A stretch of DNA of 64,000 nucleotides from Xenophilus azovorans DSM 13620 (GTDB taxonomy: Bacteria; Pseudomonadota; Gammaproteobacteria; Burkholderiales; Burkholderiaceae_C). Shown here piece after piece: positions 2,746 to 49,042 of this stretch (positions are counted from its first letter, which is position 1; every line of letters starts with the position of its first letter). The stretch lies in contig NZ_JQKD01000004.1 in NCBI RefSeq assembly GCF_000745855.1, positions 124,001 through 188,000 on the forward strand, read 5' to 3'. Below the pieces are notes generated by a model, which had not been told where the DNA came from, made no database searches, and saw nothing but the letters and a program-made list of their open reading frames with translations. A program made the translations under genes and the position numbers.

Positions 2746-4775
<2,030 letters not shown>

Positions 4776-4776
<1 letters not shown>

Positions 4777-5579
4777 CAGCGCCCGCTCCAGCGCGGCGGC
4801 CGCTTCTCGTTGAAGGCGCGCACGCCTTCGAGCCGGTCCTGCGACGACACGAGCACGTTGTAGGCGGCAATGTCGAGCGCGTAGCCGCTGTGGAAGTCGA
4901 CCTCGCCGCCGCGCGACGCCGCCACCTTGGCGTAGTGCACGGCCATCGGCGCGGCCAGCGCCACCTCGCGCGCCTCGGCCACCGCGGTGGCAAGCGCCTG
5001 GCCGGGCTCGACCAGCGTGGTGGTGATGTTCCACTGTGCAGCCTGCTCCGCGCTGAAGCGGCGCGCGGTCAGCAGCAGTTGCTTGGCGCGCCGCGCCCCG
5101 GCCGCGCGCACCAGGTTCTGGATGCCGCCGCCGCCGGGCATGATGCCGCGCCGCACCTCGGGCAGCGAGAACACCGCCGAGCGCGCGGCCACGATCCAGT
5201 CGCACATCAGCGCCAGTTCGCAACCGCCGCCATGCGCATGGCCTTCCACGGCGGCGATCACCGGGCACGGAAAGTCCTTCACCGCCAGCAGCACCTCCTC
5301 GGCCAGCTGGTGCTGTCGCCGCCACTGCTGGTCGGTCATGCCGTCGCGCTGCTTCAGGTCGCCGCCGGTGCTGAAGGCGCGCTCGCCGGCACCGGTGACG
5401 ACGAGCACGCGCAGGCCGTCGTCGTAGGCCAGATCATGCAGTGCGGCGCGCAGGTCGACGAACATCTGCGTGTTCATCGCGTTCATCACCTCGGGTCGGT
5501 TCAGCACCAGGCAACGCACGCCCTCGTCGGGGGAGGTGCCCGGGGCTGGCTCGACGCGCAGCGTCTCGTAGGTTCCCAT
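4776..5579 (-). CDS. Enoyl-CoA hydratase/isomerase family protein (crotonase)
   Basis: A 267-residue crotonase. It has LNRPEVMNAMNTQMF, the oxyanion segment AFSTGGDLKQ, and EGHAHGGGCELALMCDW followed by PEVRRGIMPGGGGIQNL. The latter carries the PE...G..PG..G pattern with the first catalytic-type Glu. It ends in EKRPPRWSGR, the usual C-terminal helix. It lies between an ACAD and the carboxylase alpha subunit, with 9-base and 1-base junctions, so it is cotranslated with them. It could be a second hydratase of the same pathway or an enoyl-CoA isomerase. Confidence 0.88.
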
Positions 5580-5588
5580 CGTGCGGTC

Positions 5589-6755
5589 TCAGTACGAACG
5601 CGGCATGCCAAGCAGATGCTCGGCCACCTGCGCCAGAACCAGGTTGTTGGAGATCGGCGCGGTGCGGAACAGGCGGCTTTCCTTCCACTTGCGCTCGATG
5701 TCGAACTCGCAGGCCACGCCGTAGCCGCCAAAGGTGGTCATCGCGGCCTCGGCCGCCTCCCAGGCGGCCTCGCTGGCGAGGTACTTCACCATCGTGGCCT
5801 CGCGGCCGCAGGGCTGGCCGGCGTCGAACAGCGTGGCCGCCTTGTTGCGCATCAGCTCGGCCGCCTCGACGTTGAGGTGCGCCCGCGCGATCGGGAACTG
5901 CACGCCCTGGTTGGAGCCGATCGGGCGGTCGAACACGACGCGCTCGCGCCCATAGGCCGCGGCCTTGCCGACGAACCAGTGGCCGTCGCCGATGGCCTCG
6001 CTGGCCACCAGCAGGCGCTCGCTGTGCAGCGAATCGAGCAGGTAGTGGAAGCCCTTGCCTTCCTCGCCGATGCGATCGTCGTCGGCGAGCTCCAGGTTGT
6101 CGATGAACACCTCGAAGGTGTGGTGGTTGATCATCGTCTTGATCTGGCGCGACTGCAGCGCCTTGCCGGCCTTGGCGATGTCGATCAGGAACAGGCTCAG
6201 GCCGTCGGTCTTCTTCTTCACCTCGGCGAGCGGCGTGGTGCGCGCGATCAGCAGGTACAGGTGCGAATGGCTGTAGCGCGAGGTCCAGATCTTCTGCCCG
6301 TTGAGCACGTAGCCGCCGGGCACGCGGCGCGCGAAGGTCTTGATCGCCAGCGTGTTGGAACCGGCGTCGGGCTCGGTCACTCCGAAGGCCTGCAGGCGCA
6401 GGCTGCCGTCGGCGATGCGCGGCAGCGTGCGGCGCTTCTGCGCCTCGCTGCCGTGGCGCATGATCGAGGCCATCGTGTACATCTGCGCGTGGCAGTGCAC
6501 GGCGCTGGCGCCGTTCTGGTTGATCTCCTGCAGGATCAGGCAGGCGTCGAGCAGCGGCAGGCCGGCGCCGCCGTATTCCTCGGGGATCAGTGCGGCCAGC
6601 CAACCGGCCTGGGCCATCGCATCGACGAAGGCCTCGGGGTACTGGCCGTCCTGCGCCAGCTGGCGCCAGTACGCGGGGCCGAAACGCGCGCACAGCTCCT
6701 TCACGGCGGCGCGGATCTGGGCCTGGGTGTCGGTGTAGTCGAAGTTCATCGGCAT
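5589..6755 (-). CDS. Acyl-CoA dehydrogenase
   Basis: A 388-residue FAD-dependent acyl-CoA dehydrogenase with all three ACAD domains. FAD/substrate motifs are visible at FGVTEPDAGSNT and NGQKIWTSRYSH, and the C-terminal part has FGGYGVACEFDIERKWKESRLFRTAPISNN. The usual EGT catalytic Glu near the C terminus is absent (the loop reads TAPISNN). SERLLVASE on helix G offers a Glu at the isovaleryl-CoA/long-chain ACAD position, which suggests branched or long substrates. ATG 6749 (MNFDYTD) is an alternative start. It precedes a crotonase and the carboxylase alpha subunit, as LiuA/AtuD enzymes do in carboxylase clusters. Confidence 0.9.
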   Translation of the reverse strand: MPMNFDYTDTQAQIRAAVKELCARFGPAYWRQLAQDGQYPEAFVDAMAQAGWLAALIPEEYGGAGLPLLDACLILQEINQNGASAVHCHAQMYTMASIMRHGSEAQKRRTLPRIADGSLRLQAFGVTEPDAGSNTLAIKTFARRVPGGYVLNGQKIWTSRYSHSHLYLLIARTTPLAEVKKKTDGLSLFLIDIAKAGKALQSRQIKTMINHHTFEVFIDNLELADDDRIGEEGKGFHYLLDSLHSERLLVASEAIGDGHWFVGKAAAYGRERVVFDRPIGSNQGVQFPIARAHLNVEAAELMRNKAATLFDAGQPCGREATMVKYLASEAAWEAAEAAMTTFGGYGVACEFDIERKWKESRLFRTAPISNNLVLAQVAEHLLGMPRSY

Positions 6756-6780
6756 GGGAAATTGACTCCTTCCGGTCGGT

Positions 6781-7974
6781 TCAGCCGATCACGCCGAGGC
6801 GCTGCAGCGCGGCCTGCGCCGCTGCATCGATGCCCAAGGCATGGAGCACGGCCGCGGTGTCGGCGCCCAGCGCCGGTGGCGCCGTGGGCGTGCGGCCACG
6901 CTCGCCGCCGCTGTTGAAGGGCAGGCCGATGGCGCGGTGCCCGGGTGCCTGCGGCAGCGGCACGTCGGTCAGCAGCCCCAGGGCCTGAACCTGCTCCTGC
7001 TCCAGCACCTGGGCCACGTTGTTCAACTCGCTGCAGGGCGCGCCGGCCGCGCGCAGCAGGGCGATGCACTCGGCGGTGCTGCGCGTGCGCGTGTGCGCTG
7101 CCAGCGCCTCGTGCAGCGCGTCACGGTGGCCCACGCGCAAGGGGTTGTCGACGAAGCGCGCATCGCGCGCCAGCTCAGGGCAGCCCAGCGCGTCGCAGAT
7201 GCGGGCGAACAGCCGGTCGTTGGCGGCCGCGATGAAGACCTGGCCGTCGGCCGTGTCGTACAGCTCGTAGGGCACCATCATAGCCATGCCCGAGCCCATC
7301 TTGCGCGGCAGCCGGCCCGTGGCCAGGTAGTTGGCGATCGGCACCGCCATCCACGCCAGGCCGGTCTCCAGCAGGCTGGCGCCCACACGCAAGCCCTGGC
7401 CGGTGGTGGCGCGCTGCAGCAGGGCCGCGAGCACGGCCATGGCGGCCCACATGCCGGTGCCCAGGTCGATCAGCGACACGCCCACCCGCGCCGGCTCGTC
7501 GCCTTCGTGGCCGGTGACGCTCATGATGCCGGTGAAGGCCTGCATCAGCGGGTCGTAGCCGGGCAGGCCACGCATCGGCCCCGCCTCGCCGAAGGCGCTG
7601 ATGGCGCAGTACACGAGCCGTGGGTTCGCGGCGCGCAGCGGTTCGTCGCCCAGGCCGCGCGCCTCGGCGCTGCCCGGCTTGAGCGAATGCACCAGCACGT
7701 CGGCACCCGCGGCCAGCTGCGCCACGATGCGCTGGCCCTCGGGCCGGTCGAGGTCGAGCGCGACGCTCTTCTTGCTGCGGTTCAGCGCCGCAAAGCCGGT
7801 GCCCATGCCGCCGATCTCGGGCGGCCGCCAGGCGCGCGCGTCGTCGCCGCCGCCCGGCCGCTCGATCTTGATGACGTCGGCGCCGAGGTCGGCGAGCACC
7901 TGCGTGCAGTACGGGCCGGCGACGTTCTGCGTCAGGTCGATGACGCGCAGGCCCTGGAGGACGGAGCCGAGCAT
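6781..7974 (-). CDS. Family III CoA-transferase (CaiB/BaiF)
   Basis: A 397-residue protein of the CaiB/BaiF family, which moves CoA between acyl groups through an aspartyl-CoA intermediate. The N terminus GLRVIDLTQNVAGPYCTQVLADLGADVIKIE and the catalytic Asp in SLIDLGTGMWA are present. LNRSKKSVALDLDRPEG is the usual CoA-contact segment. GTG codons at 7982 and 7976 are possible starts that would overlap the upstream gene's stop. It follows the carboxyltransferase gene by 5 bases and probably activates a pathway acid using a pathway acyl-CoA as donor. Racemase activity is less likely: the racemase gene of this window, at 26962, has a clearly different active-site set. Confidence 0.88.
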   Translation of the reverse strand: MLGSVLQGLRVIDLTQNVAGPYCTQVLADLGADVIKIERPGGGDDARAWRPPEIGGMGTGFAALNRSKKSVALDLDRPEGQRIVAQLAAGADVLVHSLKPGSAEARGLGDEPLRAANPRLVYCAISAFGEAGPMRGLPGYDPLMQAFTGIMSVTGHEGDEPARVGVSLIDLGTGMWAAMAVLAALLQRATTGQGLRVGASLLETGLAWMAVPIANYLATGRLPRKMGSGMAMMVPYELYDTADGQVFIAAANDRLFARICDALGCPELARDARFVDNPLRVGHRDALHEALAAHTRTRSTAECIALLRAAGAPCSELNNVAQVLEQEQVQALGLLTDVPLPQAPGHRAIGLPFNSGGERGRTPTAPPALGADTAAVLHALGIDAAAQAALQRLGVIG

Positions 7975-7979
7975 CACCG

Positions 7980-9587
7980 TCACATCCTGAACACGCCGAA
8001 ACGCGTGTCGCGTTGCGGCTGGCGGCCGGCCAGCTCGAACAGCAGGGCCAGCGTGTCGCGCGTCTCTAGCGGGTCGATGACCATGTCGCACCACAGGTTG
8101 GAGGCGAAGTTGTAGGGGCTGGCGAAGGCCTCGAACTGCTCGCGGATCGGCTGCTTGAAGCGCTCGCGCTCGGCGTCGGTCCAGCTCATGCCTTCGCGTT
8201 CGTGGATGCGGTCGCGCACCATCGTCAGCGTGGTGGCGGCCTGCTCGGGGCCCATCAGCGCGGCACGGCCGCTCGGCCACATCAGCATCGCATGCGGCTT
8301 GAACGGCCGCCCGCACATCGCAAGGTACGCCGCGGCGTACGAGCCGCCGGTGATGAGCGTGTAGCGCGGCACGCTGGCCGAGGCCATGGCGGTGATGAAC
8401 TTGGCGCCGTGCTTGGCGATGCCCTCGCGCTCCACCGCCTGCCCGACCATGAAGCCCGACACGTCGGCCACGAACAGCAGCGGGATGTCGCGCTGGCAGG
8501 CCAGCTCGATGAAGTGCGCGCCCTTGACCGCAGCCTCGGAAAAGATGACGCCGTTGTTGGCCAGGATGCCGACCTGGAAGCCCTTGATGCGCGCGAAGCC
8601 ACAGACCAGCGTGTCGCCGTACAGCGGCTTGAATTCCTGGAACTCGCTGCCATCGACCAGACGCGCGACGACCTCGCGGTTGTCGGTGGGGTGGCGCGTG
8701 TCGGCGCTGACGATGCCGTAGATCTCTCGCGGGTCGTGCAGCGGCGCGCGGCTCGGGGCCACGTTCCAGCGCTGCTTCGGCGGCGTGCCGAGGTTGGCCA
8801 CGATGTCGCGCACGATGGCGATGGCGTGGCCGTCGTTCTCGGCCAGGTGGTCGGTGACGCCGCTGACGCGGCTGTGCATCTCGCCGCCGCCCAGCGTCTC
8901 GACATCGACCTCTTCCTTGGTGGCCGCATACACCAGCTCGGGCCCGCCGAGGAACATCGCGCCCTGCTTGCGCACGATGACGGCGATGTCGCACAGCGCC
9001 GGCAGGTAGGCACCGCCCGCGGTGGACGGGCCATGCACGGTGGCGATCTGCGTGATGCCCTCGGCCGACATGCGGATCTGGTTGTAGAAGATCGACCCGA
9101 ACTGGCCGTCGTCCGGGAAGATGTGCGCCTGCTCGGGCAGGTTGGCGCCGCCGGACTGGACCATCGTGATGCATGGCAGCCGGTGCTGCCAGGCGAACAT
9201 CTGCGCCCGCACGTGCTTCTTCGCGGTGATGCCGTAGTAGGTGGCGCCCTTCACCGTGGCGTCGTGGATCATCAGCATGCACGGCCGGCCGCTGACCAGG
9301 CCCACGCCGGTGATGATGCTGCCGCCGGGCGGCACGCCCTCGTACAGGCCCTCGCCCGCGAGCTGGCCGAACTCCAGGAACGGCGAGCCGGGGTCGAGCA
9401 CCGCTGCCAGCCGCTCGCGCGGCAGCAGCTGGCCGCGCTGCTGGTGCAGGCGGCGCGCCTTCTCGGGCCCGCCGATGAGCGCCCGCGCACGGCGTGCGTG
9501 CAGGTCGGCGATGCGCGCGAGGTAAGCCTCGTGGTTGCGCGCGAAGGCCTCGCCGCCGGGCGAGACCGTGGAGGGCATCACCGTCAT
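7980..9587 (-). CDS. Acyl-CoA carboxylase beta subunit (carboxyltransferase), both domains intact
   Basis: A 535-residue carboxyltransferase of the methylcrotonyl/geranyl-CoA carboxylase family, partner of the alpha subunit at 2746. The N-domain acyl-CoA site is complete: SGGANLP (145-151), AGGAY (190-194) and LGGPELV (213-219). The C-domain biotin side is also complete: GFMVG (378-382) and GGSYAAAY (414-421), followed by a full-length helical segment before LWCD. It is therefore the in-window reference for the altered paralogues at 44250, 46012 and 47543. The GGSYGAGY form usual in the family is GGSYAAAY here. Its ATG overlaps the upstream ACAD stop by 4 bases. Confidence 0.94.
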   Translation of the reverse strand: MTVMPSTVSPGGEAFARNHEAYLARIADLHARRARALIGGPEKARRLHQQRGQLLPRERLAAVLDPGSPFLEFGQLAGEGLYEGVPPGGSIITGVGLVSGRPCMLMIHDATVKGATYYGITAKKHVRAQMFAWQHRLPCITMVQSGGANLPEQAHIFPDDGQFGSIFYNQIRMSAEGITQIATVHGPSTAGGAYLPALCDIAVIVRKQGAMFLGGPELVYAATKEEVDVETLGGGEMHSRVSGVTDHLAENDGHAIAIVRDIVANLGTPPKQRWNVAPSRAPLHDPREIYGIVSADTRHPTDNREVVARLVDGSEFQEFKPLYGDTLVCGFARIKGFQVGILANNGVIFSEAAVKGAHFIELACQRDIPLLFVADVSGFMVGQAVEREGIAKHGAKFITAMASASVPRYTLITGGSYAAAYLAMCGRPFKPHAMLMWPSGRAALMGPEQAATTLTMVRDRIHEREGMSWTDAERERFKQPIREQFEAFASPYNFASNLWCDMVIDPLETRDTLALLFELAGRQPQRDTRFGVFRM

Positions 9588-10741
9588 GGCCGCGTCCCGA
9601 GTTCCTTGCGCTGCGATTGCGCGAAGCGTTGCAGGTGGTGGTCGATGCCGCCGTCGGCCTTCTCGAACAGGGTCAGGCGGCGGAAGTAGTGGCCGATGTC
9701 CAGATCCTCGGTCATGCCGACGCCGCCGTGCAACTGCACGCCCTGCTGGGCGACGTAGCGCGCGCGCTCGCCGACCGCCACCTTGGCCGCCGACGCCGCA
9801 CGCGCCCGCTCGGCCGGTGCAGCATCGGCATGCAGCGCCGCCATCACCACCATCGAGCGCGACGCTTCGAGCGCCGCGAACATGTCCACCATGCGGTGCT
9901 GCAGCACCTGGAAGCTCGCCAGCGGCGCGCCGAACTGCTTGCGCGTGGCCAGGTAGGCGCCGGTCTTGTGCAGCACGGCCGTCATCGCGCCCAGCGCGTC
10001 GGCGCAGGCGGCGATGGTCGACAGGTCGACGGCGCGCTCCAGCGCCTCCAGTGCACGCCCCGGGTCGCCCAGCAGTGCCGCGGCGTCGAGCTGCACGCTG
10101 TCGAGCCGCAGCTCGCCGGCGGACACGCCGTCGTAGCGCCGGTAGGGTTCGATGCGCACGCCGGCCGTGCCCACCGGCAGCGCGAACAGCGCAAGACCGG
10201 CGCGCTCGCCCGGGCGGCCGTCGAGGCGCGCACTGACGATGGCCATGTCGGCCTGCGGCAGGCCGACGACGCCGGTCTTGCGGCCGTCGAGCACCCAACC
10301 GCTGCCCTGACGCTTTGCGCGCGTTTCGACCCACGCGAGCGTGGGGCCCGAGTCGGCCTCGGTGCAGGCCAGCGCCAGCCGGCTGCGCCCTTCGACCAGC
10401 GGCGTCAGCAGCGCCAGTTGCTGCCCGGCGTCGGCCGCAGCAGCCACCGCCTGGGCCGCCAGCACGGTGGATGCGACGTAGGGCTCGAGTGAGAGCGCCG
10501 CGCCCATCGCCTCGCACACGGCGATCAACTCGGGCATGCCGCCGAAGCCGCCCACGGCCTCCGGCAGGCCGAGGCCCAGCCAGCCGAATTCGGCAAAGCG
10601 CGTCCAGTGCGCCGCCCCGGCCACGGCGTCGTCGGCTGACGCCAGCCGCTTCGCGCGCGCGTCGAAGCGGTACTCGGCGCGGAAGTACTTCTGCGCCGCA
10701 TCACGCAGCATCTTCTGTTCGGGGGTGGGGTTCAGGTCCAT
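9584..10741 (-). CDS. Acyl-CoA dehydrogenase, partner-type (degenerate) subunit
   Basis: A 385-residue ACAD. The fold is recognisable at GLGLPEAVGGFGG, DGRKTGVVG, RKQFGAPLASFQVLQHRMVDM and VQLHGGVGMTEDLDIGHYFRR. The C terminus runs into LFEKADGGIDHHLQRF with no EGT or GGSxE catalytic loop. It sits 15 bases downstream of a fuller ACAD (10757). Such adjacent pairs are known in actinobacterial steroid and bile-acid side-chain catabolism (FadE pairs), where the two proteins form alpha2beta2 enzymes and one supplies the catalytic Glu. A heteromer with the 10757 product is therefore likely. The same pairing occurs at 61274/62431 and, fused, at 53641. Confidence 0.87.
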   Translation of the reverse strand: MDLNPTPEQKMLRDAAQKYFRAEYRFDARAKRLASADDAVAGAAHWTRFAEFGWLGLGLPEAVGGFGGMPELIAVCEAMGAALSLEPYVASTVLAAQAVAAAADAGQQLALLTPLVEGRSRLALACTEADSGPTLAWVETRAKRQGSGWVLDGRKTGVVGLPQADMAIVSARLDGRPGERAGLALFALPVGTAGVRIEPYRRYDGVSAGELRLDSVQLDAAALLGDPGRALEALERAVDLSTIAACADALGAMTAVLHKTGAYLATRKQFGAPLASFQVLQHRMVDMFAALEASRSMVVMAALHADAAPAERARAASAAKVAVGERARYVAQQGVQLHGGVGMTEDLDIGHYFRRLTLFEKADGGIDHHLQRFAQSQRKELGTRP

Positions 10742-42231: not shown

Positions 42232-44235
42232 TCACTCCGGCATGACCGACACCACCACCGCGTTGCGCTCGACCGTCTGCCCGACGCGGCAATTCACCGC
42301 CGCCACCGTGCCGGCGCAGTCCGCGGTGATGCGCATCTCCATCTTCATCGACTCGAGGATCGCGACCACCGTACCCTTGTCGACGCGGTCACCCGGCGCG
42401 ACGTTTACCTTCAGGATCAGCCCCATCATCGGCGCCTTCACGTCGCCGCTGGCCTGTGCCGACGCGCTGATGTAGGACAGGTACGGCACCGCCTTCAGCG
42501 CGTGCGTGCCACGGCCGTCCTGCACGTGCAGCATGTCGCCGTCACGGTGCACGGTCACCAGCTCGCGCAGGCCGTCGGCAATGGCCAGGAAGCGGCCCTC
42601 TCCGCCAGCCGGTCCGAGCCGCAGGCGCAGCCGCGCGGTACCGACCCCGATGAGCAGGCTGCCGTCGCGCGCCACCGGCCCGAAGCGGATCTCGGCGCTG
42701 GCGCCGTCGGAGCCTTCCACGTGCACGCTGGGCACCGGTGCCAGGCCATCGTCGCCGCTGTTCAGCTGCCAGCCGCTGCCGCCCCACGCGGCCCACGGGC
42801 TGCGGGCGCTGCCGGCACTGTCACCTCGCTCGCCGCGCAGCCAGTGCATGGCACCGATGGCCAGTGTGCGTTCGTCGTGCTCGGCCTTGCCCAGCGCCCA
42901 GCCCTCGATCTGCTCGTCGATCAGCCGTGTGTGGAAGGTCGCCTTGCGCGTCTCGGGCAGGTCGATCAGGCGCTGCAGGAAGCCGATGTTGCTGGTGACG
43001 CCGAAGACCCGCGTGTCGTCCAGCGCCCGCTCCAGCCGGTCGAGTGCCTCGTCGCGTGTCGGTGCGTGCGTGATCAGCTTGGCCAGCATCGAGTCGTAGT
43101 ACGGCGTGACCTCGCCGCCCGACTCCACACCGGTCTCCACGCGCACGCCCGCGCTCGGGAAGCCCACGTGCGAGAGCCTCCCGGTGGAAGGCAGGAAGTT
43201 CGCCGCCGGGTCCTCGGCGCAGATGCGCGCCTCGACCGCGTGGCCGCTGATGCGCACGTCCTCCTGCGCCAGCGGCAGGCCCTCGCCCGAGGTGATGCGC
43301 ATCATCAGCTCGACGATGTCCAGGCCGGTGATGGCCTCCGTCACCGGGTGCTCGACCTGCAGCCGCGGGTTGACCTCGAGGAAGTGGTAGTCCTTCTCGC
43401 CGACGATGAACTCGACCGTGCCGACGCCGCGGTACTTCAGCCGCTCGCCCAGGCGCACGGCATCGGCCGCCATACGGTCGCGCATCGCCGCGCTCAGGTT
43501 CGCGGCGGGCGCTTCTTCGATCACCTTCTGGTGGCGTCGTTGCAGCGTGCACTCGCGCTCGAAGAGATGGATGACCTTGCCCTGGCCGTCGCCGGCGATC
43601 TGGATCTCGATGTGGCGCCCGCGCCGGATCAGCTTCTCGACGATCAACCCGGCATCGCCGAAGGCGTTCTTCGCCTCGCGCATCGCCGACTCGATCTCCT
43701 GCGCCAGGCCGTCCATTGTCTCGATGCCGCGCATGCCCTTGCCGCCGCCGCCCGCGGCGGCCTTCAGCATGACCGGCAGACCGACGCGCCGCACGGTGGC
43801 GGCGATCTCGGCGGGGTCGGTGCTCGGCGACTGGCTGCCGGGCACGATGGGAACGCCGGCCGCGTCGGCCTCGCGCTTGGCCGCCGCCTTGTCGCCCAGG
43901 CGCTCGATGACTTCGGGCGTCGGGCCGATGAAAACCAGCCCGGCGGCCTCGACCGCGCGCGCGAACGCCGCGTTCTCGGCCAGGAAGCCGAAGCCGGGGT
44001 GGATGGCCTGCGCGCCGACCGACTTCGCGGCAGCAATCACCGCGTCGATGCGCAGGTAGCTCTCGGAAGCCGCGGCACCGCCGATCTCGACGGACTCGCC
44101 GATCTCGCGCACATGCAGCGCGTCGCGGTCGGCAGCCGAGTGCACGCCCGCCACCGCCACGCCCAGGCGGCGGCAGGTGCGGGCGATGCGGCAGGCGATC
44201 TCGCCGCGGTTCGCAATCAGAATCTTCTTGAACAT
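42232..44235 (-). CDS. Acyl-CoA carboxylase alpha subunit, copy 2 (biotin carboxylase + biotin carrier)
   Basis: A 667-residue subunit paralogous to the one at 2746. It has the biotin carboxylase N terminus KKILIANRGEIACRIARTC, the ATP lid GGGGKGM, FLEVNPRLQVEHPVTEAITG, and the C-terminal biotinyl domain SGDVKAPMMGLILKV with ILESMKMEM; the biotin lysine is about residue 631. The middle region is the MCC-type transmission domain. All catalytic motifs are intact. It is downstream of the carboxyltransferase gene 44250, whose N-domain is degenerate, so the holoenzyme probably also needs the CT proteins encoded at 46012 and/or 47543. Confidence 0.94.
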   Translation of the reverse strand: MFKKILIANRGEIACRIARTCRRLGVAVAGVHSAADRDALHVREIGESVEIGGAAASESYLRIDAVIAAAKSVGAQAIHPGFGFLAENAAFARAVEAAGLVFIGPTPEVIERLGDKAAAKREADAAGVPIVPGSQSPSTDPAEIAATVRRVGLPVMLKAAAGGGGKGMRGIETMDGLAQEIESAMREAKNAFGDAGLIVEKLIRRGRHIEIQIAGDGQGKVIHLFERECTLQRRHQKVIEEAPAANLSAAMRDRMAADAVRLGERLKYRGVGTVEFIVGEKDYHFLEVNPRLQVEHPVTEAITGLDIVELMMRITSGEGLPLAQEDVRISGHAVEARICAEDPAANFLPSTGRLSHVGFPSAGVRVETGVESGGEVTPYYDSMLAKLITHAPTRDEALDRLERALDDTRVFGVTSNIGFLQRLIDLPETRKATFHTRLIDEQIEGWALGKAEHDERTLAIGAMHWLRGERGDSAGSARSPWAAWGGSGWQLNSGDDGLAPVPSVHVEGSDGASAEIRFGPVARDGSLLIGVGTARLRLRLGPAGGEGRFLAIADGLRELVTVHRDGDMLHVQDGRGTHALKAVPYLSYISASAQASGDVKAPMMGLILKVNVAPGDRVDKGTVVAILESMKMEMRITADCAGTVAAVNCRVGQTVERNAVVVSVMPE

Positions 44236-44249
44236 GGTGCTGGCCCGCC

Positions 44250-45821
44250 TTACATCCGGAACACGCCGAAGCGCGAGGGCACCGCCGGCACGCGGCCGGC
44301 CAGGTCGAGCAGCATCGCCATCACGTCGCGCGTTTCGGCCGGCTCGACGATCAGGTCGCACCAGGTGTTGCGCGCAAAGTTGTAGGCGTTGGCGAAGTCC
44401 TCGAAGGTCTTGCGCACCGGCGCCTTGTAGGCTTCGCGCTCGGCGTCGGTCCAGCTCGTGCCGTCGCGCTTGTGCTGGTCGTCCTTGACCATCGCCAAGG
44501 TGGTGGCGGCCTGGTCGGGGCCCATGATCGCGGCACGGCCGTTGGGCCACATCATCATCGCATTGGGCTTGAACGCGCGGCCGCACATCGCGAGGTAGCC
44601 CGCGCCGTAGGAGCCGCCGATGATCAAGGTGTACTTGGGCACGTTGGCGCAGGTCATCGCGGTGATCATCTTCGCGCCGTGCTTGGCGATGCCGGCCTCC
44701 TCGGCCTCGCGGCCGACCATGAAGCCGTTGATGTCGGCCATGAACAGCAGCGGGATGTCGCGCTTGCAGCACAGGTCGATGAACTGCGTGGCCTTGAGCG
44801 CGCTCTCGGAGAACAGCACGCCGTTGTTGCACAGGATGCCGATGTCGAAACCCTGGATGCGCGCGAAGCCGGTGATCAGCGTGTCGCCGAACTCGGGCTT
44901 GAACTCGTGCAGGTCGCTGCCGTCGATCAGGCGCAGCACGATCTCGCGGTTGCTGGTGGGCACGCGCGGGTCGGCGCTGACGAGGCCGTAGATCTCGCGC
45001 GTGTCGTGCAGCGGCTCGCGCGGCTCGGCCACGTCGCGCCGCTGCTTGGGCACATCGCCCAGGTGGCCGACCAGGTCGCGCAGGATGGCGATGGCGTGCG
45101 CATCACTCTCGGCCAGCCGGTCGGTGACGCCGTCCTCGCGGTTGGCGCGCTCGGCGTCGGCGGGCGCCGGAACGGCTGCGCCGAAGGCCAACGCACCGCG
45201 CTCGCGCACCACGACCACCTCGTCGCACATCGCGGCCACGAACGCCGCCGCATCCGCCGCGGGGCCGTGCACGCTGCAGATCTGCGCGATGCCCTCGCGC
45301 GACATGCGCGTCTGGTTGTACAGGATCGAGCCGAACTGGCCCTCGTCGGCGAACACACCCTGCCTGGCGCCGGGCGGCTGCGCGCCGGGCTGCAGCATCG
45401 TCACGCACGGCAGGCGGTGCTGCCACGCGAAGCGCTGCGCGCGCACGTGCCGCTTGCAGGTATGGGCGTTGTAGGCGCCGTCGTTGACCGTGGGATCGCT
45501 GGCGATGACCATGCATGGCCGCCCGGCGATCATGCCCACGCCGGTGACGACGCCGGCGCCGGGTGGATCGTCGCCGTACAGGCCCTCACCAGCCAGCTGG
45601 CACAGTTCGAGGAAGGGCGAGCCCGGGTCGAGCAAGGCGCTGATGCGCTCGCGCACCAGCATCTGGCCGCCGTCGCGCAGCTGCTGGCGGGCCGCGGCCG
45701 AGCCGGCCGCCAATGCCGCCGTGCGGCGCGCGCGCAGATCGGCCACGCGGGCCTCATAGGCCACGCGGTTGGCCTGCAGCTCCTCGGGGCTGGCGGTGAT
45801 GGCGGATGCCAGGATGCTCAT
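44250..45821 (-). CDS. Carboxyltransferase (acyl-CoA carboxylase beta) with degenerate N-domain
   Basis: A 523-residue CT protein. Its C-domain, which binds carboxybiotin, is canonical: GFMVG (366-370), GGSYGAGY (402-409) and the full helical stretch MGPDQAATTLAMVK to TWCD. Its N-domain, which binds the acyl-CoA, has lost every signature kept in the paralogues: SGGANLP is PGAQPPG (145-151), AGGAY is DAAAF (190-194), and the LGGPELV...LGGGEMHSR region is LAFGAAVPAP with about 12 residues missing. The frame is intact throughout and length is otherwise normal, so this looks like a specialised subunit rather than a wreck. CT active sites form between the N-domain of one monomer and the C-domain of another. 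Confidence 0.93.
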   Translation of the reverse strand: MSILASAITASPEELQANRVAYEARVADLRARRTAALAAGSAAARQQLRDGGQMLVRERISALLDPGSPFLELCQLAGEGLYGDDPPGAGVVTGVGMIAGRPCMVIASDPTVNDGAYNAHTCKRHVRAQRFAWQHRLPCVTMLQPGAQPPGARQGVFADEGQFGSILYNQTRMSREGIAQICSVHGPAADAAAFVAAMCDEVVVVRERGALAFGAAVPAPADAERANREDGVTDRLAESDAHAIAILRDLVGHLGDVPKQRRDVAEPREPLHDTREIYGLVSADPRVPTSNREIVLRLIDGSDLHEFKPEFGDTLITGFARIQGFDIGILCNNGVLFSESALKATQFIDLCCKRDIPLLFMADINGFMVGREAEEAGIAKHGAKMITAMTCANVPKYTLIIGGSYGAGYLAMCGRAFKPNAMMMWPNGRAAIMGPDQAATTLAMVKDDQHKRDGTSWTDAEREAYKAPVRKTFEDFANAYNFARNTWCDLIVEPAETRDVMAMLLDLAGRVPAVPSRFGVFRM

Positions 45822-45943
45822 GGCGCCGCCCGATCCATGCCGACAGAAAGCGTCGGGGATGTTGGCCGGGTAAAGAAATGCATGTCGTTCAGCATGTGCG
45901 TCGGGAGATTGGGGACTGCCGGCGATCGGAGATCAGGGCCGCA

Positions 45944-45973
45944 TTGCGCGTACGGCAGTCACACCGCTAGAAT
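45944..45973 (+). promoter_or_regulatory. Sigma-70 type promoter for the CT pair at 46012
   Basis: TTGCGC (45944-45949), an 18-base spacer and TAGAAT (45968-45973). The -10 is only two bases from operator site 3, and the coding start follows 38 bases later. Confidence 0.45.
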
Positions 45974-45974
45974 A

Positions 45975-45990
45975 CCAAACATTTGTTAGG
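45975..45990. promoter_or_regulatory. Shared inverted-repeat operator candidate, site 3
   Basis: CCAAACATTTGTTAGG, symmetric except at two base pairs; the core CAAACATTTGTTAG (45976-45989) fits CNAACRNYYGNTWG. It lies just after the -10 of the plus-strand CT pair, in the region shared with the minus-strand carboxylase genes. Confidence 0.65.
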
Positions 45991-46011
45991 TCATCAAATT
46001 TCAACTCGCCC

Positions 46012-47511
46012 ATGACATCGCCAGCAACGTTAGACACCCTCCGCGACGAGCGTTTTGCCCGGCGCGAGCAGGCCTACCGCCAACTGATGGCCCGCCTGAG
46101 CGCGCGGCTCGACGAGGCCCTGACCGGCGGCAGCGAGAAGGCGCGCAAACTGCACAAGAGCCGCGGCCAGATGCTGCCGCGCGAGCGCGTGCAGGCGCTG
46201 CTCGACCCCGGCTCGCCTTTCTTCGAGATCGGCCAACTCGCCGGCGCCGACCTGTACGAGGGCGTGCCCCCAGGCGCCACGATGATCACCGGCGTGGGCC
46301 AGGTCTGCGGGCGCTGGTGCATGTTGCTGGTGAATGACGCCACGGTGAAGGGCGGCACCATGTTCGGCATGACCACCAAGCGGCACACGCGGGCACAGCT
46401 GTTTGCGTGGCACCACCGCCTGCCGTGCATCACGATGGTCCAGTCCGGTGGCGGCTTCCTGCCCGATCTGGCCAACATCTTCCCCGACGAAGGCCAGGCT
46501 GGCTCGATCATGTACAACCAGGTCAAGATGTCGGCCGAAGGCATTGCACAGATCGCCCTCGTGCACGGCCCCTCCACGGCGGGCGGAGCCTACATCCCCG
46601 CGCTGTGCGACGAGGTGGTGATCATCCGCAAGCAGGGCGCCATGTTCCTGGGCAGCCCTCAGCTGGTGTTCGCCGCCACCGGCGAGGTCATCGACATCGA
46701 GCCGCTGGGCGGCGCCGAGATGCACAGCCGCCTGAGCGGCGTCACCGACCACATGGCCGATGACGACGAGCACGCGCTGGCCATCACCCGGCGCATCGTC
46801 GCACACCTGGGCGAGCCGCCGCGGCTGCGCTGGACACGCGCCGAGCCCGCGCCGCCGCTGCACGACCCTCGGGAACTGGCGGGCCTGGCCGCCGTCGGCG
46901 CGGTCGAAGGCGCCGACTGCCGCGACATCCTGGCGCGGCTGGTGGACGGCAGCCAGTTCCAGGAGTTCAAGCAGCTGCACGGCGAGACGCTGGTGTGCGG
47001 CTTCGCCCGCATCGAAGGCTTCGAGGTCGGCATCGTCGCCGGCCACGGCCTGCTCACCGCGCAGGCCGGTGCCAAGGGCGCGCACTTCGTGCAGCTGTGC
47101 GGCCAGCGCGACATCCCGCTGGTGTTCCTCGTCGACTCCCCCGGCTTCGCCGACAGCAGCCGGCCGGGCCAGACCAACGTCGGCCGCCACGGCGCCAAGC
47201 TGCTGAACGCGGTGGCCAACGCCGACGTGCCCAAGTTCACCGTCATCACCGGCCGCGCCCACGGCGCGGCCTACCACGCGCTGGGTGGCCGCGCCTTCAA
47301 GCCCAACGCGCTGCTGATGTGGCCCGGCGCCCGCGCCTCGGCATCGCCCGACGCGCCCGACGACGAGGCCGGGGCGCTGAACTGGGCGCGCCAGCTGTGG
47401 TGCGATGCCATCGTCGAGCCCGAGCGCACCCGTGCTGTGCTGGCACAACTGCTCGACGTCGCGGGCCGCCTGTCCGCACAGCCCGCGGCCTACGGCGCTT
47501 TCCGCATGTAG
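46012..47511 (+). CDS. Carboxyltransferase-like subunit with altered C-domain, paralogue A
   Basis: A 499-residue CT-family protein, complementary to 44250. The N-domain acyl-CoA site is intact: SGGGFLP (145-151), AGGAY (190-194) and LGSPQLV (213-219), with PLGGAEMHSRLSGV after. The C-domain is changed: GFMVG has become GFADS (SPGFADS, 376-382), GGSYGAGY is GRAHGAAY (414-421), and about 36 residues between MWP and WCD are missing compared with 7980 and 44250. The frame is otherwise clean, ending YGAFRM like the true beta subunits. Either it pairs with 44250 to make a composite active site or it has another CoA-ester activity. Confidence 0.92.
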   Translation: MTSPATLDTLRDERFARREQAYRQLMARLSARLDEALTGGSEKARKLHKSRGQMLPRERVQALLDPGSPFFEIGQLAGADLYEGVPPGATMITGVGQVCGRWCMLLVNDATVKGGTMFGMTTKRHTRAQLFAWHHRLPCITMVQSGGGFLPDLANIFPDEGQAGSIMYNQVKMSAEGIAQIALVHGPSTAGGAYIPALCDEVVIIRKQGAMFLGSPQLVFAATGEVIDIEPLGGAEMHSRLSGVTDHMADDDEHALAITRRIVAHLGEPPRLRWTRAEPAPPLHDPRELAGLAAVGAVEGADCRDILARLVDGSQFQEFKQLHGETLVCGFARIEGFEVGIVAGHGLLTAQAGAKGAHFVQLCGQRDIPLVFLVDSPGFADSSRPGQTNVGRHGAKLLNAVANADVPKFTVITGRAHGAAYHALGGRAFKPNALLMWPGARASASPDAPDDEAGALNWARQLWCDAIVEPERTRAVLAQLLDVAGRLSAQPAAYGAFRM

Positions 47512-47542
47512 CCCCGGCCGCGGCGTGGCACCGGCGAAAGAC

Positions 47543-49042
47543 ATGCAGGCAATCAGCAGCGCGGCGGCAACTACCGGCGCCGATTTCGAAACCCGCCGCG
47601 CCCGCTTCGACGCGCTGGCCTCGGCGCTGCAGGCGCGGCGCGACGAAGCCTCGGCCGGCGGCAACGAGCGCGCGCGCAAGCTGCACCAGAGCCGCGGCCA
47701 GCTGCTGCCGCGCGAACGCATCGCGGCGCTGCTCGATGCGGGCGCGCCTTTCTTCGAGATCGGCCAACTCGCCGCCGCCGACCTGTACGACGGCGTGCCA
47801 CCGGGCGCCACGCTGATTACCGGTGTGGGCCGCGTGGCCGGGCGCGAGTGCATGCTGATCGTCAACGACCCCACGGTGAAGGGCGGCACGATGTTCGGCA
47901 TGACCACCAAGCGCCATGTGCGGGCGCAGATGTTCGCCTGGCAGCACCGGCTGCCGTGCATCACGATGGTCCAGTCGGGCGGTGCCTTCCTGCCCGACCT
48001 GGCCAACATCTTCCCCGACGACGGCCAGGGCGGATCAGTGATGTACAACCAAGTGAAGATGTCGGCCGAAGGCATCGCGCAGATCGCCCTCGTCTTCGGC
48101 CCCTCGACGGCCGGCGGCGCCTACATTCCCGCGCTGTGCGACGAACTCGTCATCGTGCGCAACCAGGGCGCGATGTTTCTCGGCAGCCCGCAGCTCGTGT
48201 ATGCCGCCACCGGCGAGGTGGCCGATTCCGAGGCACTGGGCGGCGCGCTAATGCACTGCAGCCTGAGCGGCGTGGCCGACCACCTGGGCGACGACGACGC
48301 CGATGCGCTCGCCATCGCGCGGCGCATCGTCCGTCATCTGGGCGAACCGGCGCCGCTGCGCTGGACGCGCGCTGCGGCCGAAGAGCCGCTGCACCCCGCC
48401 ATCGAACTGCGGGGCCTGGTGCGTCTGAACGGCGAACCCGCGGCCGATGCCGGCGAGCTGATCGTGCGCCTGGTCGACGGCGGCCGCTTCCAGGAGTTCA
48501 AGCCGCTGCACGGCGAGTCCCTGCGGTGCGCCTTCGCCCGCATCGAGGGCTTCGAGGTCGGCATCGTCGCCGGCGCCGGCGCGCTCACCGCGCAGGCAGC
48601 GGCCAAGGGCGCCCACTTCATCGAGCTGTCCGTACAGCGCGACATCCCGCTCGTATTCCTGGTCGATTCCCCCGGCTTTGCCGACAGCGGCGAGGCGTCG
48701 CAGGGCAGCATCGGCCGCCACGGCGCGAAGCTGCTCAACGCGGCGGCCAATGCCGATGTGCCCAAGATCACCGTCATCGTCGGACAGGCCCATGGCGCCG
48801 CCTACCACGCGCTGTGCGGCCGCGCCTTCAGGCCCAACGCGCTGCTGATGTGGCCCAACGCGCGCGCCGCCGCGTCGCCCGATGCGCCCGACAACGAAAC
48901 CGGTGCGCTGAACTGGGCGCGCCAGCTGTGGTGCGACGCCGTGATCGAGCCCGAGCAGACGCGCGGGGTGCTCGCACAGCTGCTCGATGCGGCCGGCCGC
49001 ACGCCGGCGCGGCCGGGCGGCTGGGGCGTGTTTCGCATGTGA
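47543..49042 (+). CDS. Carboxyltransferase-like subunit with altered C-domain, paralogue B
   Basis: A 499-residue tandem copy of the previous gene with the same features. The N-domain is intact: SGGAFLP (145-151), AGGAY (190-194), LGSPQLV. The C-domain carries SPGFADS, GQAHGAAY and the same deletion between MWP and WCD. The two copies differ through much of their surface, for example LMHCSLSGVADHL against EMHSRLSGVTDHM, so the duplication is not recent. Start at MQAISSAAATT. Having two N-domain subunits for one C-domain subunit could give two acyl-CoA specificities; this is inference. Confidence 0.92.
   Translation: MQAISSAAATTGADFETRRARFDALASALQARRDEASAGGNERARKLHQSRGQLLPRERIAALLDAGAPFFEIGQLAAADLYDGVPPGATLITGVGRVAGRECMLIVNDPTVKGGTMFGMTTKRHVRAQMFAWQHRLPCITMVQSGGAFLPDLANIFPDDGQGGSVMYNQVKMSAEGIAQIALVFGPSTAGGAYIPALCDELVIVRNQGAMFLGSPQLVYAATGEVADSEALGGALMHCSLSGVADHLGDDDADALAIARRIVRHLGEPAPLRWTRAAAEEPLHPAIELRGLVRLNGEPAADAGELIVRLVDGGRFQEFKPLHGESLRCAFARIEGFEVGIVAGAGALTAQAAAKGAHFIELSVQRDIPLVFLVDSPGFADSGEASQGSIGRHGAKLLNAAANADVPKITVIVGQAHGAAYHALCGRAFRPNALLMWPNARAAASPDAPDNETGALNWARQLWCDAVIEPEQTRGVLAQLLDAAGRTPARPGGWGVFRM

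Follow-up and report, generated by a model that had tools for sequence, protein, structure and literature searches.

Can the active site of a biotin-dependent carboxylase be shared out between two full-length paralogues, each of which has lost the half that the other retains? The question is raised by a compact four-gene unit of Xenophilus azovorans DSM 13620, found within the 64,000-nt stretch of contig NZ_JQKD01000004.1 (positions 124,001 to 188,000) that we analysed and refer to as the window. The unit consists of an alpha-subunit gene, three carboxyltransferase (CT) paralogues named B, C and D, and the divergent region around which they are arranged in the order alpha, B, gap, C, D, with the alpha start only 17 bases behind B; a further CT of the window, A, serves as the reference paralogue (Table 1). 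We consider it likely that the products of the unit form a biotin-dependent acyl-CoA carboxylase with an obligately heteromeric CT core, belonging to the methylcrotonyl-CoA/geranyl-CoA carboxylase (MCC/GCC) lineage. All genes named in the initial annotation of this stretch proved to be open frames, and the divergent region and the alpha gene that it described as common to them were both confirmed.

Alignment of the four CTs places the losses of B and of C/D in opposite domains. In the N-domain of B, SGGANLP is replaced by PGAQPPG and TAGGAY by DAAAF, and the LGGPELV region is 12 residues shorter, whereas the C-domain signatures are intact; every change from which the initial annotation had concluded that this gene kept its C-domain and lost its N-domain signatures is thus seen in the alignment. 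C and D, conversely, retain the N-domain signatures but carry GFADS in place of GFMVG and have lost a net 36 residues. Their second C-domain motif reads GRAHGAAY or GQAHGAAY, and here the earlier claim that the C-domain signatures were lost holds for the changes themselves but goes too far for this motif, which is altered rather than wholly lost, because its Gly–Ala pair survives (HGAAY). Both halves of A are intact, as had been proposed, but GGSYGAGY cannot serve as the general form of this motif, given that intact A itself reads GGSYAAAY.

Loss was also measured without picking motifs, by counting the columns with at least 97% identity across 52 intact CTs, comprising 27 of the family's common MCC-like paralogue and 25 closer relatives. 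This set holds 155 positions (N-domain, 86; C-domain, 69); the domain boundaries (1–262 and 286–524, P0001 numbering) and the MCC-like label of the 27 rows are our own, and six distant paralogues from the window genome, L016, L017 and the partial L094 CT were left out. Of these near-invariant positions, the window's B protein keeps 55/86 in the N-domain and 67/69 in the C-domain, C keeps 85/86 and 47/69, and D keeps 81/86 and 48/69. Group majorities behave alike: B retains 54/86 and 68/69 (32 and 1 lost), C 86/86 and 49/69 (0 and 20 lost), and D 81/86 and 52/69 (5 and 17 lost), which corresponds to Fisher p values, uncorrected for phylogeny, of about 6e-9 for B, 2e-8 for C and 0.001 for D. A composite of the N-domain of C with the C-domain of B, both from the window, keeps 152 of the 155 positions, while the opposite composite keeps 102.

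As a control, the intact groups were left out one at a time with the columns defined anew, the F-, A- and G-types being named after the residue at the Phe191 position of MCC. The fractions kept in the N- and C-domains were 90/101 and 76/78 for A/G-type tandem CTs (7 rows), 87/88 and 71/72 for F-type tandem CTs (4 rows), 91/93 and 72/73 for the group of A (5 rows), 88/88 and 70/73 for alphaproteobacterial F-type CTs (9 rows), and 88/111 and 66/86 for the distant MCC-like group (27 rows). No losses like those of B or C were found in the held-out intact groups, although the A/G-type shows a mild N-sided loss; on the column set defined without the A/G-type, B keeps 61/101 and 76/78, and C 91/101 and 55/78. 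The reciprocal degeneration of the two half-sites is thereby confirmed.

Table 1. Features of the split carboxyltransferase locus and the reference paralogue (positions are those of the window)
Feature	Position	Strand	Description
alpha	42232-44232	minus	biotin carboxylase and biotin carrier domains; carrier motif ESMKMEM
B	44250-45821	minus	CT paralogue; C-domain (carboxybiotin half) intact, N-domain degenerate
Divergent intergenic region	45822-46011		190 bases, common to B-alpha and C-D
Conserved operator-like element ACCAAACATTTGTTAGGT	45974-45991	no strand	only match in the window
C	46012-47511	plus	CT paralogue; N-domain (acyl-CoA half) intact, C-domain degenerate, helical segment absent
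D	47543-49042	plus	copy of C (73% identity); N-domain largely intact, C-domain degenerate
A	7980-9587	minus	intact MCC-like CT, reference paralogue outside the split system

Evolutionary rates, calculated from 11 full-length rows out of 19 for B and 16 out of 26 for C/D (12 C, 4 D), are likewise skewed in opposite directions. B has a median pairwise dN ratio of the N- to the C-domain of 3.76 (55 pairs), C one of 0.59 (66 pairs) and D one of 0.73 (6 pairs), with 1.12 (36 pairs) in intact alphaproteobacterial F-type CTs. Median dN/dS in the N- and C-domains, respectively, amounts to 0.297 and 0.136 for B, 0.187 and 0.337 for C, and 0.184 and 0.266 for D, so that all three proteins, their degenerate halves included, are under purifying selection. 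The motifs of the degenerate halves vary among species (PGAQPPG, PAPPAEK, SGGRQFL and SGDRASA in B; GFADS, GFAAS, GLAAN, GFLSG and GFGSG in C/D), unlike those of the live halves, which are nearly constant. One might still see in these genes pseudogenes decaying after tandem duplication, as conserved motifs have indeed been lost and a second C-like copy in one related locus (L053) is fragmentary. However, with open frames, median dN/dS well below 1 and a like layout in 17 loci from several genera, decay is so improbable that we reject it: the split CT set is a maintained system.

Relatives were sought by scanning a genome collection with a two-row B alignment, which yielded 60 loci, namely 19 with B orthologues (74–100% identity), one with a C-type gene only (L099), and 40 with intact CTs. 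Since many rows are near-copies (L045 equals the window at the protein level, and L044 and L059 seem to be one contig), the counts do not represent independent events. In all 17 B loci whose contig reaches upstream, a divergent CT adjoins B, and 16 of these CTs have a degenerate C-domain, the seventeenth (L055) being cut by the contig end before that part; the remaining two B loci (L098, L100) begin inside B. The adjoining gene is of the C-type throughout (in L055, as far as it is visible), while a D-type partner, with Gly at the Phe191 position, is present in six of the 17 (L045–L050) and in the window. Alpha follows B in 19/19 loci; that of L052 (from about 9065) is read in two overlapping frames, reflecting a frameshift or an assembly error. 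In Schlegelella koreensis, two alpha-B-C-D units lie on separate contigs (L046, L048). A degenerate B without a neighbouring CT was not seen wherever the contig extends that far. The minimal unit is alpha-B-C, because an Extensimonas-type locus (genome G135) holds these three genes without D and without the acyl-CoA genes that neighbour the unit in the window.

A strict survey of the window's family (C at E ≤1e-215, B at E ≤1e-225) found both types in the same 8 of 399 genomes, representing four genera and including the own genome, and no genome with only one of them. Together with the 17/17 loci, this bears out the co-occurrence of the two degenerate types, which had been put forward as a check. 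Wider surveys for C, the samples of which overlap and from which distant forms may escape, returned, out of 399 genomes of the order (cut-off 1e-192), just the own genome and a single other with intact tandem CTs and, out of 398 genomes of the phylum (1e-190), the own genome alone. A degenerate B that acts alone with an alpha subunit, which would have spoken against the proposed complementation, was also looked for and not found: in the 60-locus scan, 34/34 loci with a single CT followed by alpha keep all three N-domain motifs.

The divergent region contains a near-palindromic element, ACCAAACATTTGTTAGGT, with a single match in the window at up to 3 mismatches, where 0.01 would be expected. 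Its 16-base core occurs at up to 2 mismatches in the B-C intergenic regions of 17 of the 18 B-C loci (the window, L045–L055, L057–L059, L090 and L103, but not L056; L044/L059 counted once). Of the 40 intact loci, 24 have a related form, mostly TCTAACATTTGTTAGA, with up to 3 mismatches; judging by title, these are chiefly loci of Bradyrhizobium and relatives. At the same threshold it occurs in 0/6 of the tandem intact loci. The element is thus common to the split system and to intact-enzyme loci. It is probably the operator of a common regulator, and its position suggests that B-alpha and C-D are jointly controlled from this single site between them.

AlphaFold2 monomers of B (pLDDT 83.4, pTM 0.86) and C (pLDDT 77.1, pTM 0.84), of generally good quality although built from alignments only 37 and 33 rows deep, respectively, place both proteins among two-domain CTs. 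Both models match MCC beta best, with a best TM of 0.88 for C. Their connectivity is of the MCC type: the C model reaches TM 0.80–0.89 to MCC chains and about 0.4 to PCC/12S, and the B model superposes at 2.0–2.7 Å rmsd on MCC chains as opposed to more than 22 Å on full-length PCC-type chains. A long N-terminal helix, reported to be lacking in PCC beta (PMC4673880), spans residues 12–37 in B and 13–38 in C. B has C-domain helices at 435–453 and 459–477, where C has only short ones at 450–453 and 455–460. The acyl-site loops of the N-domain score below 50 in pLDDT in both models, despite the conserved motifs in C.

The CT active site is reported to lie at the dimer interface, with the N domain binding acyl-CoA (PMC11735997), the substrate of MCC is located in that interface (PMC4347857), and in PCC the biotin carrier loop is described as touching the C-CT domain (PMC10148081). 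Taken together, these three features would give each B-C pair one live and one dead site. In the mechanism that we propose, alpha would carboxylate its own biotin, and the carrier would bring carboxybiotin to the C-domain of B, which would face, over the CT dimer interface, the N-domain of C (or D) holding the acyl-CoA; the opposite interface, formed by the N-domain of B and the C-domain of C/D, would be dead, and BB and CC homodimers would be without a complete site. We infer both that the heteromer forms and which of its interfaces is live, and a stoichiometry of alpha6 with a six-CT core is likely.

Several points weigh against this heteromeric reading. C and D keep the Gly–Ala pair of the oxyanion-type C-domain motif, and total inactivity of that half is presumed. 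The full N-domain score of C depends in part on the inclusion of its closest intact relatives, because it falls to 91/101 when the A/G-type rows are held out. Intact CTs are themselves somewhat skewed, with dN ratios (N/C) of 1.51 in tandem-operon F-type CTs (6 pairs) and, as a mild skew, of 0.71 in A/G-type relatives (21 pairs). Moreover, the 60-locus scan was derived from B, and C-type genes without B were sought systematically in the family, order and phylum surveys only. One C-type gene (L099, in metagenome-assembled genome (MAG) G150) lies next to unrelated genes with no B adjoining, and a degenerate B was not found in that MAG. Because the orthologous alpha of this MAG is cut at residue 229 by the contig start, on the side where B lies in the sister locus, its B may be unassembled; we do not count L099 as support. 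Such a gene apart from B is what one would meet if B and C/D had separate single-domain functions, C/D acting, for instance, as a biotin-independent acyl-CoA enzyme through the crotonase-type N-domain, and each CT half is in itself a crotonase-like fold. We regard this as improbable in view of the B-C pairing and the one common promoter element, and because the N-domain of B and the C-domain of C still evolve under purifying selection (median dN/dS, about 0.30 and 0.34, respectively), as parts needed in an oligomer would.

Intact CT paralogues of the same genome could in principle also be partners of B or C. The 6.5-Mb window genome has 13 Carboxyl_trans matches, 11 of them near-full-length, counting B, C and D, and further CT genes exist in the Extensimonas-type genome as well, which leaves room for B and C/D as pseudoenzyme subunits that do not complete each other but attach to an intact CT, for example A, or modulate it. 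This, too, seems unlikely to us: regulation does not predict one half kept near-perfect with the opposite half lost, the Extensimonas-type unit has an alpha of its own and lacks the window's neighbouring genes, and A has an alpha-like gene nearby (2749, minus strand; 54% identity to the alpha of the split unit). The obligate B-C/D heteromer therefore remains our preferred reading. The reciprocal interpretation offered by the initial annotation is supported by co-occurrence, opposite domain rates, purifying selection, the drifting motifs of the dead halves and the existence of intact tandem relatives.

These relatives bear on the origin of the system. In a tree built by a quick method with SH-aLRT support, B forms a single clade (100) nested among intact F-type CTs (group support 83), and C and D jointly form another (100) nested among intact A/G-type CTs (group support 100), with D (96) placed among the C genes; the alpha genes of the split system also form one clade (98). 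All three clades lie near intact tandem CT and alpha operons from Rhodocyclaceae and Nevskiaceae. Among the 40 intact loci, 34 have a lone CT with alpha behind it, and six contain, or can be taken to contain, more than one CT per alpha gene. Nevskia and Polycyclovorans MAGs (L086, L087, L089) carry one F-type and one A-type CT, a Rhodocyclaceae MAG (L064) carries G-, F- and A-type CTs, and a betaproteobacterial MAG (G151; L092, L094) carries G- and A-type CTs together with an F-type on a second contig. The tandems of intact CTs with one alpha gene at L064 (6377-11229), L086 (8034-11226) and L092 (3871-7124) are candidate pre-split heteromeric carboxylases. Complementary half-site loss would then have come after an ancestral tandem of intact paralogues on one alpha, an order of events that we infer.

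The acyl pocket offers a hint at the substrate. Phe191 of Pseudomonas MCC, equivalent to Phe157 of mycobacterial AccD1 (PMC4347857), corresponds to Gly162 in geranyl-CoA carboxylase (GCC), gates acyl size, and when exchanged is reported to alter substrate preference (PMC4673880). The equivalent residue is Phe in 19/19 B rows, whose N-domain is degenerate, Ala in 20/20 C rows and Gly in 7/7 D rows. Hence, the Phe of the MCC substrate class is found in neither C nor D, and the Gly of the GCC class is found in D, with Ala in C, a comparison of the residue only that sets a three-residue length difference aside. With Ala or Gly in place of the Phe gate, we therefore predict that C and D accept bulkier acyl groups than methylcrotonyl and may differ from each other in preference. 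The Ala/Gly difference suggests that they are interchangeable specificity subunits; a modular carboxylase, in which a common B combines with either C or D to give two specificities from one alpha and one B, is a tentative extension of this idea, for which we would put the chances somewhat below even. The Ala/Gly pair seems to have two separate origins, one in the intact tandem CTs of Rhodocyclaceae-like bacteria and one in the degenerate C/D. In the window and at several other loci, genes for an AMP-binding ligase, a thiolase-like protein and acyl-CoA dehydrogenases accompany the unit, as does an MmgE/PrpD gene, pointing to acid breakdown via CoA esters; these neighbours do not settle the substrate of the split carboxylase.

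Some further observations concern CT genes outside the unit. The intact A belongs to a second acyl-CoA gene group (2749-10741) that comprises an alpha-like subunit and, by labels assigned by eye, CaiB-like and acyl-CoA dehydrogenase genes. The two partial Carboxyl_trans matches of the window genome (G000:C25:61801-62343 and G000:C19:64183-64686; L012 and L013) span profile positions 249-427 only and 52-223 only, a pattern that would fit AccA and AccD; they are candidates for an older split of a like active site within this genome. Another CT relative (L017, G098:C12:837241-838812), 55% identical to B, shows one in-frame TGA in the search output. The second C-like copy of L053 has Ala at the Phe191-equivalent position and is read only in fragments, the assembly having unread bases there.

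The locus provides a bacterial example in which the sequence itself directly reveals that two paralogues have each lost the half of an active site that the other retains. Because intact relatives of both types remain in tandem operons, the passage from homomer to obligate heteromer becomes testable stepwise in a well-understood enzyme. It would also represent a natural route to combining different acyl-CoA specificity subunits with one shared carboxylase core.

Both split CT subunits (AccA/AccD) and heteromers of CTs (AccD4/AccD5) have precedents, whereas no case of two full-length CT paralogues degenerating reciprocally was recognised in the open-access literature searched, which does not establish its absence in print. 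Pseudoenzyme complementation reportedly occurs in the deoxyhypusine synthase of trypanosomatids, an unrelated, eukaryotic enzyme. In bacterial AccD/AccA, as here, the N-half and the C-half of one CT reside on different polypeptides, an arrangement explained by the split of an ancestral CT subunit (PMC3199775); there, however, the chain was cut in two, leaving one crotonase-like half per chain, while B and C are modelled as two-domain CTs, each with one degenerate domain. Mycobacterial AccD4 and AccD5 are likewise two CT paralogues, and their reciprocal interaction in a heteromer is reported (PMC4347857), while B and C/D are linked here by co-occurrence. Their connectivity is of the PCC type (TM about 0.4), and reciprocal half-site loss is not described for them in the excerpts of that report. 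GCC belongs to the same lineage as the split system and shares the small residue equivalent to Phe191 (Gly in GCC and D, Ala in C; PMC4673880), but its beta subunit is made of one CT chain type, and the C and B models are only 32–37% identical to the GCC structure. In MCC beta (PDB 3u9r, 9yx0), as in the CT beta of GCC, both half-sites lie on every chain, whereas here each of B, C and D carries one, and C and D do so without the Phe gate.

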